DNA of 64,000 nucleotides from positions 1 to 64,000 of the forward strand of contig NZ_AUMM01000008.1 in NCBI RefSeq assembly GCF_000430685.1, read 5' to 3'. This DNA comes from Tuberibacillus calidus DSM 17572. GTDB taxonomy: Bacteria > Bacillota > Bacilli > Bacillales > Sporolactobacillaceae. The notes beneath the pieces are model-generated. The model saw only the letters and a list, made by a program, of their open reading frames with translations. It did not search any database and was not told the origin of the DNA. The translations under genes and the position numbers were made by a program. Shown one piece after another: positions 13,223 to 49,716 of the stretch. Each line of letters opens with the position of its first letter. Within the stretch, counting starts at the first letter, position 1.

Positions 13223-13358
13223 TCATGTAGACACCTCCACTAATATTTTGCGCGCTGTCATGTATAGAGTGTAGACAGAGCTCTTTTTTTAAAAGACAAA
13301 AATCGATAAAATATTTTTGGTAATAGATTATTATTTAACAGACAAAAGGAGAAGAACG

Positions 13359-14045
13359 ATGGATCAAACTGCTGAAAAAAAGCTAGTCGGTGAAGCTGCG
13401 GCGGCTTATGTAGAGGATGGAATGATAGTCGGTCTCGGGACAGGCTCAACGGTCTACTTTACAATACTCAAATTAGCTGAGCGGGTTCAAAAAGAAAAAT
13501 TAACGATACAAGCGGTGTCAACGTCGAAAAGAACGACAGAACTCGCTGAAGCAAACGGCATCAAAATTTATGATTTGAATGACGTGCCAAAGGTGGATTT
13601 AACGATTGACGGTTGCGATGAATTCGACCCCCAGCTTTCGGGGATTAAAGGCGGCGGCGGCGCGCTTTTATTTGAAAAAATTGTCGCAACCGCATCTGAT
13701 AAAAATATATGGGTGGCAGACAGCTCCAAAGCTGTCGAGCAGCTTGGGCGCTTTCCGCTTCCAGTGGAGGTTTTACCGTTTGGTGCCCAACATCTTTTCC
13801 GTCTTTTTGAGAAAGAAGGCCTCAAACCGGTTTTCCGTACGAATCCTGACGGCTCACCGTATATGACGGACAGCGGAAATTGGATCATTGACCTTCATCT
13901 CGGGCGTATTGATGATCCTGAGACGCTTTCGTCATGGTTGAACGGACAACCTGGTGTCATCGAAAATGGTTTGTTTTTAAATATTGCCGATTGCGTGATT
14001 CTCGCAAACGGCGAGAATGTCAAGACGTTAAAGCGGGATGTTTAA
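13359..14045 (+). CDS. rpiA: ribose-5-phosphate isomerase A
   Basis: The 228-residue enzyme interconverts ribose 5-phosphate and ribulose 5-phosphate in the non-oxidative pentose phosphate pathway. Family motifs are GLGTGSTVYF near residue 30, DGCDEFDP with the active-site acids near 85-90, and KGGGGALLFEKIVA. The start ATG 13359 has AAAGGAGAAG before it; upstream in-frame codons lack a site. It appears to be transcribed alone; about 200 bases of unremarkable sequence separate its stop from a strong terminator. Confidence 0.97.
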   Translation: MDQTAEKKLVGEAAAAYVEDGMIVGLGTGSTVYFTILKLAERVQKEKLTIQAVSTSKRTTELAEANGIKIYDLNDVPKVDLTIDGCDEFDPQLSGIKGGGGALLFEKIVATASDKNIWVADSSKAVEQLGRFPLPVEVLPFGAQHLFRLFEKEGLKPVFRTNPDGSPYMTDSGNWIIDLHLGRIDDPETLSSWLNGQPGVIENGLFLNIADCVILANGENVKTLKRDV

Positions 14046-14243: not shown

Positions 14244-14276
14244 AGGACAGTCCGAACGTGGGCTGTCCTCTTTTTT
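14244..14276 (+). terminator. intrinsic terminator downstream of rpiA
   Basis: AGGACAGTCC at 14244-14253 pairs with GGGCTGTCCT at 14260-14269, and TTTTTT ends at 14276. The 200 bases between rpiA and this hairpin contain no supported gene. Confidence 0.88.
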
Positions 14277-14299
14277 ATCCTCGTAAGGAAGTAAAAATG

Positions 14300-14945
14300 G
14301 CCTAAGAAATTTTTGGCTTGGGTTGCTATATTAAGTTTTATCAGCCATTATGAACTGTAAATTTAGTTGAAATGGCATTTAGTTTGAAATTATTGGTAAA
14401 ACGAGGCTGATTTGAGGAGTGTTTTGCCAATATCTGTATTCAAAAAGCCGTTTTGGAATAGAAAGCGAACCAAAATGGCCTTTAGCGTGGCTCTATCTGC
14501 CATTTTGGACTGAGAATTTTTTTGAAATGGCATTTAGCTTGAAGTTAATGGAAAAATGAGCCCAATTCGAGGAAGGTTTTACCAATATCTGTATTCAAAA
14601 AGCCATTTTGGAATAGAAAGCAAACCAAAATGGTATTTAGCGCAGCTCTATCTACCATTTTGAGCTTAAAAATTTTTTGAAATGACCTTTAGCTTGAATT
14701 TACTGGAAAAATAAGCGTGATTTGAGGATGGTTTTACCAATATCTGTATTCAAAAAGCCGTTTTGGAATAGAAAGCAAACCAAAATGGTATTTAGCGTGG
14801 CTCTATCAGCCATTTTGAGCTTGAAAATTTTTTGAAATGACCTTTAGCTTGAATTTATTGTAAAAATAGAGCTAAATTAGAGCCGTTTTCCAATATCTGT
14901 ATCAAAAAGGCCGTTTTGGAGTGATGATGACGCCATTATGGTCTT
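14300..14945 (+). repeat. 155-bp tandem repeat array 1
   Basis: The landmark GAAATGNC(N)TTTAG recurs at 14369, 14524, 14679 and 14834, so three successive steps are exactly 155 bp. A partial unit precedes 14369 and the last unit degenerates from about 14900. Within a unit come CCAATATCTGTATTCAAAA, then GCCGTTTTGG or GCCATTTTGG, a 13-nt spacer, CCAAAATGG, and a second copy of GCCATTTTG. Units differ at roughly one base in five, yet length is conserved. No frame stays open across units. Related arrays lie at 32985 and 49205 on the same strand. Confidence 0.92.
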
Positions 14946-14975
14946 ATGAATTGGCCCAACAAGCACTAATCCGGA

Positions 14976-14999
14976 AGACCGGGCGGGTGCCCGGTTTCG
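14976..14999. terminator. hairpin closing array 1, possible bidirectional terminator
   Basis: ACCGGGC at 14978-14984 pairs with GCCCGGT at 14989-14995 around a 4-nt loop; TTTCGT follows on the plus strand. On the minus strand it could end transcription of the DUF1657 gene, although the T-run there is weak (CTTCC). Confidence 0.5.
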
Positions 15000-15051
15000 T
15001 ATAAAGCTAAAATCAGCTGGCATTGAGCACCAGCGAAATATCTTGCAATGG

Positions 15052-21365: not shown

Positions 21366-21502
21366 ATCATCCTTCTCCCATCCAGACTGTACTGTCGGTT
21401 CCGGATTCGCACCGGATCCTGCCGTATAAACGGCTCGCGGACTTAAAGAAAAATCTTATCACCGCCGGTCGGGAATTTCACCCTGCCCTGAAGGAACGTC
21501 TT
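21366..21502 (-). ncRNA. FMN riboswitch (RFN element)
   Basis: Read on the minus strand the element shows the conserved blocks TTCAGGGCAGGGTGAAATTC, CCCGACCGGCGGTGA, GTCCGCGAGC, GATCCGGTGCGAATCCGG and CAGTCTGGATGGGAGAAGGA in the right order. These are the invariant parts of the six-arm FMN aptamer. It controls ribU by premature termination. Confidence 0.97.
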
Positions 21503-31499: not shown

Positions 31500-32690
31500 A
31501 TGAATTGGAAGCGAAGTGCGAGGATTTTATGGGTTTGTAACTTCATGATTTCCGCTGGAATGACAATGGTCATACCGTTTTTGGCGCTTTTTTTGTTGCA
31601 AATGGGCATTAAAGAACACCATGCGTTGAGCATGTGGACCGGGGCCATTTTTTCTGCGACCTTCCTTTCGGCGGCCGTGATGGCACCGATTTGGGGGGTT
31701 TTTGCCGATAAATACGGCCAGCGGGCTAACCTTATCCGCGCGGGGATTGGCATGGGGCTCATAACATTTTCCATGGCCTTTGCCCATACGCCGTTCATGC
31801 TCTTAATTCTGAGATTTGTCGTCGGCTTTTTTTCCGGGTTTATCACGGTCTCATTTTCATATTTATCGCGGATCACACCTAAACAAAACATTGGGGAGGC
31901 CCTCGGGACACTGCAAACCGGAAACATCGCCGGCGGTATTATCGGCCCTTTAATTGGCGGATTTTTATCCGACCTATTCGGTTTTCGCATGGTGTTTTCC
32001 ATAACGGGGATTTGTATCTTATTGACTCTCATTCCGGTCATATTTCTCTTAGAGAAGGATCCCGTCGTCAAACAAACGAAAGAAAATCATGGATCATATA
32101 AACAAGTCTTGACGAACCCCGTTCTGATCTCATTATTTGCGGCAACATTTCTCGTCCAGGTCTCGATTCAAGGGACGAATTCCATGATGACGATTTTTGT
32201 AAAAACCCTGGTGGGCAATGTGGGCAATTTAGCCTTCCTATCTGGCCTTGCCTCATCCTTAACGGGGATTGCAACCATCATTGGTGCGCCTTATATCGGG
32301 AAGTTGGGAGATAAACTTGGGCAAGCAAAAATATTACCAGTTGTGATGTTATTGAGCGGATTGTTGGCCTTACCGCAAATATGGACGAAGAACATTTATG
32401 AGCTGTATTTGTGGCGGTTCTTGCAAGGGTTGTTTATCGGCGGTATGTGGCCGGCCATCCAGTCGTTGATTCATAAACGAAGCCCGAAAATGGTTCAGGG
32501 ACGAGCCTTCGGTGTGACCGCTAGCAGCCGTTTTCTTGGAAATTTATCGGGACCGATAGTCGGGGGATATATTTCGGGAGCTTTGGCTACGAATTATGTT
32601 TTTCTTTTTTCAGGAGTGGTATTGATTATAGGAAGTTTCTTTGTCCGGTGGCGAGTGAAGCCTGAAGAGCGATCCACCTCAACAACTTAG
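31500..32690 (+). CDS. MFS multidrug efflux transporter
   Basis: The 396-residue protein has twelve predicted membrane spans. The motif-A loop between spans 2 and 3 is GVFADKYGQRANLI, and TGNIAGGIIGPLIGG in span 5 is the antiporter motif C that marks drug/proton exporters of the DHA1 group. A second motif-A-like loop, GKLGDKLGQAKI, follows in the second half. GAAGGCGACGGG precedes ATG 31500. It resembles NorA/YttB-like exporters; the substrate is unknown. Array 2 follows after a terminator. Confidence 0.88.
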   Translation: MNWKRSARILWVCNFMISAGMTMVIPFLALFLLQMGIKEHHALSMWTGAIFSATFLSAAVMAPIWGVFADKYGQRANLIRAGIGMGLITFSMAFAHTPFMLLILRFVVGFFSGFITVSFSYLSRITPKQNIGEALGTLQTGNIAGGIIGPLIGGFLSDLFGFRMVFSITGICILLTLIPVIFLLEKDPVVKQTKENHGSYKQVLTNPVLISLFAATFLVQVSIQGTNSMMTIFVKTLVGNVGNLAFLSGLASSLTGIATIIGAPYIGKLGDKLGQAKILPVVMLLSGLLALPQIWTKNIYELYLWRFLQGLFIGGMWPAIQSLIHKRSPKMVQGRAFGVTASSRFLGNLSGPIVGGYISGALATNYVFLFSGVVLIIGSFFVRWRVKPEERSTSTT

Positions 32691-32930
32691 AAACAACGGT
32701 TTTCGGACTTGAGACCTATGGCCATTCCGACTTTTAATCTAGTAAAAAACCATCCCAGCGCCGCTGTCTGTTTCTTAGCCGATCGTTTATGATTGTGCAT
32801 GTAAGAGGATGCTTGAGAGAAGTCTGGACTACTTCATTAAGGCTTTCGCCGTCACATTATTTGGAGCGCTTCATTATCATAAAGTAAAGGAAGTCGTCAA
32901 AGACTACCTGACCTCCCTAAATATTGCATG
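32691..32930. other. stretch between the MFS gene and its distal terminator
   Basis: No gene is supported. A frame from ATG 32809 encodes a plausible start (MLERSLDYFIKAF...) but runs through the terminator hairpin and into repeat array 2. It may be a remnant or chance. Confidence 0.4.
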
Positions 32931-32957
32931 GCCCGGTGACGAGCACCGGGCTTTTTT
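32931..32957 (+). terminator. intrinsic terminator at the left edge of array 2
   Basis: GCCCGGTG at 32931-32938 pairs with CACCGGGC at 32944-32951, and six T follow. Confidence 0.93.
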
Positions 32958-32984
32958 GTCGTTTAGGATGGCAATTAGTGCGGT

Positions 32985-33660
32985 TCCAAAAGTTATTTTA
33001 GGCTTAGAATTTTTTTGAAATGGCTTTTAGCTTGAATTTATTGGAAAAATGATCCTGATCTGATGGATGCTTTGCCAATATCTGTATTCAAAAAGCCATT
33101 TGGGAGCAGGAAGCCAACCAAAATGGTCTATAGCGCGGCTCTAAAAGCCGTTTTGGGCTGAGAAATTTTTTGAAATGGTCTTTAGCTTGAATTTACTGGA
33201 AAAACGAGCCTGATTTGAGGTCTGTTTTGCCAATATCTGTATTCAAAAAGCCATTTGGGAGCAGGAAGCCAACCAAAATGGTCTATAGCGCGGCTCTAAA
33301 AGCCGTTTTGGGCTGAGAAATTTTTTGAAATGGTCTTTAGCTTGAATTTACTGTAAAAACGAGCCTGATTTGAGAACTGTTTTGCCAATATCTGTATCCA
33401 AAAAACCATTTTGGAGTAGGATGCGAACCAAAATGGCATATAGCATGGCTCTAAAAGCCGTTTTGGGCTGAAAAATTTTTTAGAATGGCATTTAGCTTGA
33501 ATTTACTGGAAAAACGATACCGAATTGAAGACTGTTTTTCCAATATTTGTATCCAAAAAGCCATTTTGGAGTAGGAAGCGAACCAAAATAGCCTTTAGCC
33601 CGGTTCCAAAAGCCCTTTTGGATTAGGAAACGATCCAAAATGGCCTTTCAATTAGCACGC
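32985..33660 (+). repeat. 155-bp tandem repeat array 2
   Basis: The landmark (T)GAAATGGN(C/T)TTTAGCTTG recurs at 33017, 33172 and 33327, and in a variant form (AGAATGG) at 33482. All three steps are 155 bp. The units around 33070-33195 and 33225-33350 are almost identical, including the shortened GCCATTTGGG block, so they arose by recent duplication or conversion; the others are more diverged. Unit design and strand match arrays 1 and 3. No gene is encoded. Confidence 0.93.
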
Positions 33661-33674
33661 TCAACAGTATATCA

Positions 33675-33703
33675 CTAAAAAAAAGACCGGGCATATGCCC
33701 GGC
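33675..33703 (-). terminator. intrinsic terminator of the RND exporter gene
   Basis: The perfect palindrome CCGGGCATATGCCCGG at 33687-33702 is followed on the minus strand by TCTTTTTTTT. It marks the right edge of array 2. Confidence 0.9.
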
Positions 33704-33743
33704 ATTTCTTATATCAAAAGGAATTAACCCCGCTTTTGACGTG

Positions 33744-48829: not shown

Positions 48830-49126
48830 GTGGATATAGAAACACGACAAGCTAGACAAAGAGAATTTACCATCATTTTGGTTTTGTTTATTTTACTAGT
48901 GATTGTCGGTGCGGTCGGCTATCAGTTACCGCAGAACGTTTATTATTATGGCGGTTTGTCCCCAGGGCCTTATGGTTTCGGCGGTTGGGGCGGGTATTAT
49001 GGCCCTCTTCCGCCACCTTATTGGGCAACACCTACCCCAACGAGCATGGCACCATTACCCTATGGTCCATATGGTGCACCAATCCCGCCGGCTTACGGTC
49101 CGCCTCAATTGCCCGCATGGTGGTAA
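48830..49126 (+). CDS. YjcZ-like membrane segment fused to a Pro/Gly/Tyr-rich tail, probable spore protein
   Basis: The 98-residue protein has a polar head (MDIETRQARQREF), a single span TIILVLFILLVIVGAVGYQL that closely resembles the YjcZ membrane segment (FALIVVLFILLIIVG), and a 60-residue tail dominated by Pro, Gly and Tyr (GGLSPGPYGFGGWGGYYG, then PYGPYGAPIPPAYGPP). Relative to YjcZ peptides the Gly/Tyr part is moved to the C-terminal side. AAGGGGGTAG precedes GTG 48830. The sigma-K-like promoter and the style of the tail suggest a coat or outer-layer protein; no named family. Confidence 0.75.
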   Translation: MDIETRQARQREFTIILVLFILLVIVGAVGYQLPQNVYYYGGLSPGPYGFGGWGGYYGPLPPPYWATPTPTSMAPLPYGPYGAPIPPAYGPPQLPAWW

Positions 49127-49131
49127 GCGGT

Positions 49132-49173
49132 AACAGCTTCTCATTCGGTCAATCCGTGAGAAGCTGTTTTTTT
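49132..49173 (+). terminator. intrinsic terminator at the left edge of array 3
   Basis: AACAGCTTCTCA at 49132-49143 pairs perfectly with TGAGAAGCTGTT at 49157-49168; T continues to 49173. Confidence 0.93.
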
Positions 49174-49204
49174 GAAGGGGATTCAAAGGGCTATTTGCAC
49201 GGTT

Positions 49205-49560
49205 CAAAAGAATAGATTGGGCTGAAAAACTTTTTGAAGTGGTATCTAGCTTGAATTTATTGGTAAAATATTGCGGACTCGCAATGTTTTACCAATATCT
49301 GTATCCCAAAAACCACTTTGAAGCAGGAAGCTGTCCAAAATGGCCTTTAGCGAGGCTCTATCTGCCATTTTGGGCTGAGAAATTTTTTGAAATGGCATTT
49401 AGCTTGAACTTATTGGAAAAAAAAGCCTGGCCCAAAGGTTGATTTCCCAACATCTGTATCCTCTAAACCATTTTGAGATAGAATTAGGATCAAAATGGCT
49501 TTTAGTATTATTCCATCGACCATCTCGAAAAGGAAGGCGAGCCAGATAGGCCTATAAATT
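49205..49560 (+). repeat. 155-bp type tandem repeat array 3 (two units)
   Basis: The landmark GAARTGGNATNTAGCTTGAA occurs at 49236 and 49389, a step of 153 bp. CCAATATCTGTATCC, CCAAAATGGCCTTTAGCG and CTCTATCTGCCATTTTGG are all present as in arrays 1 and 2. The right end degenerates from about 49450 (CATCTGTATCCTCTAAACC). This array stands between two genes on the same strand, before the nucleobase permease; 49561-49716 holds a partial ACCGGAC hairpin and the permease leader only. Confidence 0.88.
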
Positions 49561-49716
49561 AGAACGGCCCGCAATAGGTCTCTAATCATAAAAAAACCGG
49601 ACTTATGCTTTGGTAATCTTAAATGCACCAAGTGCTTTAAGCAAAGTTTCCGCATGAATGCATCACATTTGGTAAACTAAGGGCTGGATGATCGATATTA
49701 AGGAGTATTGCGACTT

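Follow-up and report, generated by a model that had tools for sequence, protein, structure and literature searches.

The locus raised the question of why a non-coding tandem repeat should keep its length exactly while its sequence drifts, and whether such a repeat is an undescribed element, as the earlier note on this DNA had supposed. The retention of tandem repeats of fixed length and free sequence by some Firmicutes is a standing puzzle (PMC8161180), and the present genome makes it testable, since it contains many short diverged units in which the avoidance of insertions and deletions can be measured against control repeats. The window, i.e., the whole 64-kb stretch of DNA that was analysed, belongs to a draft assembly of 3.24 Mb in 81 contigs, the sole representative of its genus in the genome set, in which arrays may be collapsed in contigs. 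The ORFs were defined by a simple longest-ORF rule.

The 155-bp arrays in the window and in the genome

All three arrays of the window were located on the plus strand between ORFs, a common strand and an intergenic position having been stated in the earlier note. Array 1 directly follows the intrinsic terminator (14244–14275) of rpiA (ORF 13317–14045) and begins with a leading half-unit (14290–14359), recognised from the sequence as a degenerate copy of the small-hairpin module. It continues with units of 155 bp at 14360–14514, 14515–14669 and 14670–14824, a fourth unit diverging at its end (14825–14946) and a tail common to other arrays with the terminator-like hairpin GACCGGGCGGGTGCCCGGTTT (14947–15004). 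Array 2, placed directly behind the intrinsic terminator (32930–32957) of an MFS gene (ORF 31500–32690), is composed of a degenerate leading half-unit (32963–33007), four units of 155 bp (33008–33162, 33163–33317, 33318–33472 and 33473–33627) and the shared tail (33628–33714), at the end of which stands a bidirectional terminator hairpin (33680–33703). This hairpin, GACCGGGCGTATGCCCGGTTTTT, was also present at C18:21791–21824; it is dispersed in the genome and common to facing arrays. Array 3 is preceded by a terminator-like hairpin with a T-run (49134–49174), read from the sequence 3' of a small gene (ORF 48830–49126), and consists of a degenerate leading half-unit (49186–49226), a unit of 153 bp with a 2-nt deletion in the apical spacer (49227–49379), a unit of 155 bp (49380–49534) and a diverged version of the shared tail (49535–49622).

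The step of 155 bp was recovered by TRF both in array 1 (14339–14920, period 155, 3.8 copies, 85% matches, 1% indels) and in array 2 (32996–33621, period 155, 4.0 copies, 89% matches, 0% indels), and the step of 153 bp reported for array 3 corresponded to its units at 49227 and 49380. The landmark sequence on which the arrays had originally been registered occurred exactly at seven of its eight positions (14369, 14524, 14679, 14834, 33017, 33172 and 33327), the eighth, at 33482, reading AGAATGGC instead. A 23-nt core pattern matched 10 times in the window against 0.03 matches expected from shuffles. The unit contained no open frame, and its entire 155 bp were homologous among the copies, with no unrelated spacers, so that a CRISPR repeat-spacer layout was absent, in agreement with the first reading of the sequence. 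CRISPR-like arrays were observed in two relatives, G002 (L242, GTTTAGATCTTACCTATGAGGAATTGAAA) and G003 (L247, AGTCCAAACAAAGAGAAGAAGCAGTAATAAAGGGCAC).

A genome-wide count, proposed together with a test of strand bias, gave ~19 arrays of the 155-bp unit with 2–5 units each and a step of 155 in nearly all of them; the period was thus conserved beyond the window. The divergence of "roughly 20%" assumed at the beginning proved too low: the mean column identity of 39 tool-aligned units was 81%, and the pairwise identity among 48 units was 71% on average with a minimum of 52%. The units were more similar within an array (78% identity) than between arrays (71%).

Four array types and the constraint on their spacing

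The tail behind one of the 155-bp (type I) arrays gave the lead to further array types. Types II to IV were surveyed by TRF combined with profile/HMM searches in 1.213 Mb, corresponding to 37% of the genome, where a total of 56 loci, falling into four sequence types unrelated to each other, occupied ~16.7 kb: 15 loci of type I (155 bp), 11 of type II (146 bp), 20 of type III (143 bp) and 10 of type IV (145/146 bp). TRF alone detected 29 arrays with a period of 140–160 in the same 1.213 Mb. In all four types a motif of 8–11 bp alternated with its reverse complement in the order F-R-F-R, the arms being GCCATTTT in type I (10 bp), AACGTTGCGC in type II, AAAATGCGCA in type III and AAATGATACGC in type IV, with arm spacings of 78/25/27/25, 63/31/21/31, 60/32/23/28 and 63/30/22/29, respectively. 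This alternation makes the unit quasi-palindromic, which is why the reverse strand was matched by the covariance model as well, at an offset.

Self-comparison of the units revealed an internal pitch (best sub-lag) of 52 bp in types I, II and IV and of 51 bp in type III, and in a permutation test with positions shuffled within units 0 of 100 permutations reached the observed value in any type. The unit lengths can therefore be decomposed as 155 ~ 52+52+51, 146 ~ 52+52+42 and 143 ~ 51+51+41. The three sub-modules of a unit were only ~35–42% identical at the sub-lag, and two pairs of arms have disappeared from the long loop or given way to other sequence. At ~10.4 bp per turn, 52 bp would correspond to ~5 turns of the helix, 155 bp to ~15 and 146 bp to ~14, a correspondence which is suggestive only and into which 143 bp fits poorly. 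Hybrid loci were also present: a type II array is directly followed by a type I array at C10:78.08–78.91 kb, and types IV and I face each other across one terminator at C18:21.15–22.55 kb. At C5:4035–4289 a type III array is interrupted by a stretch of N, which probably represents a gap that the repeat produced in the assembly.

The preservation of length despite sequence drift, noticed already at the first inspection, reflected a real constraint. The number of indel events per substitution was 0.013 in type I, 0.015 in type II, 0.005 in type III and 0.019 in type IV, compared to 0.092 in family 2, another dispersed non-coding repeat of the same genome with 52 full copies at a divergence of 36%, and to 0.089 in the tails of the arrays. 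Indels per substitution were thus ~5 to 19 times rarer in the arrays than in these two controls, each of which is a single repeat family, and therefore the spacing within the arrays is under constraint. The apical spacer of type I was 46% diverged, its length being changed in only 4 of the 48 units.

Genomic place, folding and distribution

A terminator on the array strand was found just upstream in 18 of the 56 loci, compared to 10.6% of control windows. As the terminator of the upstream gene is often followed immediately by an array, the arrays are mostly outside of the preceding transcript, which favors a role as DNA. A dedicated downstream terminator for each array was also considered, and the strict scan gave it no support, with terminators following 9 of 56 loci on the plus and 10 of 56 on the minus strand, i.e., no excess. 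Convergent gaps with arrays outnumbered divergent ones (17 vs 5) at similar gap numbers.

The array orientation was set by the tail in types I, II and III and by one locus in type IV. In tandem gene contexts it followed the genes in a ratio of 27:7 (p = 0.0008), and it matched a leading-strand proxy in 43 of 52 loci (43:9, p = 2e-6), the proxy being the majority gene strand, with which the sign of the GC skew agreed on all contigs; the match persisted in 20 of 27 loci (p = 0.02) after removal of the co-oriented tandem cases. The family 2 control repeat was biased too, so that the arrays are not alone in this respect.

Searching Rfam produced no match for the unit at the gathering score, and at E up to 1 only weak matches with E of 0.04–0.9 were obtained, leaving the unit without a known family. 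A different element of the window, an FMN riboswitch (21366–21499, minus strand), did reach the gathering score. A structured RNA was initially suggested by early counts of G-U vs A-C, which favored plus-strand pairing in a single helix; the formal count of pairs gave no covariation. All five covariation measures for the pairing arms of type I were at the shuffle mean and the RNAalifold covariation term was about zero. The units folded slightly better than shuffles, with similar z-scores on both strands, and in types I and III the minus strand folded at least as well as the plus strand. No promoter-like sites above expectation were present near arrays 1 and 2. With covariation at chance and both strands folding alike, the evidence favors a role at the level of DNA over that of a structured RNA.

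Outside of the host genome the sequences were not recovered. Type I was absent from 25 genomes of the same family according to the covariance model, with a single unconvincing weak match (E 0.087), and HMMs of types I–IV had no match in 700 kb from seven relatives. Comparison of the four consensus units with 299 genomes of the order recovered the own genome only, a weak negative in that two candidates were scored per genome. Plasmid and phage blastn gave no match, and pattern scans of genome and viral contig collections yielded matches that were chance matches by profile score, four of them inspected in context. In one relative of the same family (G007), exact 52-bp tandem arrays of up to 16.6 copies with the arms GTTCAT/ATGAAC occurred at many loci, one of them directly behind a terminator, and another (G009) had one intergenic array in which a 52-bp repeat recurred at least 33 times up to the end of the examined stretch (L261). 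The pitch is therefore common to three genera, the sequence is not.

Two other kinds of repeats were encountered during the survey. Tandem arrays of 42 bp (2 x 21, TTTACCGCC core) were present in the own genome at C3:25195, C3:152372, C5:24892, C7:65694, C10:338 and C10:81270; together with 21-nt arrays of relative G020 they look like the published 20–21 class. A second dispersed element, TACTGGTAAGAAA...GCATAAGGGCAACTAAGGCTCTGCC...GGCAGAGCC-TTTT, had 90 matches in 1.213 Mb (for example, in L067 and L092), often adjoined the arrays and was weakly present in relative G007.

Possible roles and comparison with known systems

We give an even chance to the reading that the arrays are trimeric (3 x ~52 bp) versions of the 52-nt type of arrays acting as DNA with a fixed helical spacing of the arms. 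A putative protein, either dimeric or polymerising, would read the alternating arms as inverted binding sites placed at regular intervals, and the need for arms at fixed helical spacing would make substitutions between the sites tolerable and indels not. The number of units might change by in-register recombination or slippage, and units may move among loci as mosaics, with exchange between units and loci keeping the arms of one type alike. Against this reading stand the primary period of 155/146/143 rather than 52, the distance of 143 bp from whole turns at 10.4 bp per turn and the transcription of the 52-nt repeats in B. coagulans (PMC8625621). A more specific version, with four parallel array sets sharing one helically quantised layout (sub-modules of 5/4 turns, units of 15/14 turns) and differing in four arm motifs, appears distinctly speculative; if true, it would imply that proteins of several binding specificities form a system organising the chromosome, and that all arms of a unit changed together without loss of the pitch.

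Alternating arms in intergenic DNA would also suit selfish or neutral palindromic repeats comparable to REP/BIME or MITE elements, scattered into 3' intergenic places by a mobilising enzyme, expanded in tandem and constant in length only because recombination preserves the register. The species-restricted sequence, the hybrid arrays and the shared tails speak for such an origin, and so does the example of BIMEs, in which palindromes alternate and hybrids occur and which likewise occupy 3' intergenic places (PMC2817692, PMC3733652). However, neutral drift predicts indels at the rate of control repeats, and a single mobile element would not be expected to give four types of one pitch as well as the 52-bp arrays of other genera. 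Nor did the own genome contain a RAYT: the single Y1_Tnp match, a protein of 132 aa at C11:39468–39830 (L216), is an IS200/IS605-type TnpA which adjoins a TnpB-like ORF and lacks the NP(L/V)(R/K)xG RAYT motif, and as a cognate RAYT it was rejected. Such an origin is thus a serious, albeit doubtful, possibility.

The arrays could also be tandem structured non-coding RNAs, transcribed in the plus sense up to the tail terminator and serving as a small RNA or sponge. Their co-orientation with the genes, the terminator hairpin that several type I arrays carry in their conserved tail (terminator-like tails were discerned by eye in type III), the somewhat better folding than shuffles and the transcribed repeats of B. 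coagulans mentioned above are all compatible with this, yet the chance-level covariation, the equal or better folding of the minus strand, the lack of promoter-like excess near arrays 1 and 2 and of downstream terminator excess, and the negative Rfam result make it improbable. Still less credible, and in our opinion very improbable, is a back-up transcription termination between genes by runs of weak bidirectional hairpins: it would explain the position 3' of genes with the prevalence of convergent gaps and the nature of many arms as A/T-flanked GC hairpins, but an efficient terminator often already precedes the array, and a fixed pitch of 52 bp is not required for termination. The data favor a spacing constraint on DNA over RNA structure and point to clear binding experiments. 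The question of constant length is also made testable by the presence of four arm types within a single layout in this genome and of the plain 52-bp form in relatives.

Among known repeats, bcr1–bcr18 of the Bacillus cereus group resemble the arrays in being short, dispersed, non-coding elements of Bacillales, and bcr1 has a size of 147–167 bp (PMC2267715); they differ in that bcr1–bcr3 are described as MITE-like (PMC3446304). The REP/BIME elements share with the arrays the extragenic alternating palindromic arms, the 3' intergenic position, hybrid arrays and lineage-specific sequence. In contrast to them, the arrays have no RAYT in the genome, a unit far longer than the 20–40 bp of a REP and a strict pitch of 52 bp. 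Of the head motifs GTAG and CGTC, the former was present in linkers of the consensus units of types I and III, the latter in type II and neither in type IV, no consistent head being apparent.

The closest resemblance to the arrays concerns the repeats described in Bacillus by Subirana & Messeguer (2021) (PMC8161180), tandem arrays whose size is constant (52 or 20–21 nt) and whose sequence varies, so that the proposal of an undescribed element is not supported. The 52-nt class, found in Bacillus and other Firmicutes, is non-coding and species-specific. A genome contains several of its families, each repeat combines a short characteristic sequence with its reverse, and either a polymerising nucleoid protein or small RNAs have been proposed for it (PMC8161180). 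The arrays agree with it in being non-coding and tandemly repeated, in holding their size while varying in sequence, in the 52-nt pitch, in their species-specific sequence with several families (four types) per genome and in the F-R-F-R arms. They differ in failing the length criterion of 51–53 nt, their periods being 155/146/143/146 with 51/52 only as an internal pitch, and in their host, which belongs to another family of Bacillales. The main text of PMC8161180 contains no multiple of 52, no higher-order (trimeric) form and no four arm types. Because the homogeneous unit here is a trimer of the pitch and the strict length criterion fails, the arrays are a variant of the 52-nt kind and not plain members of it. 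Rather than a wholly new element, they are a higher-order trimeric form of a published kind of repeat.
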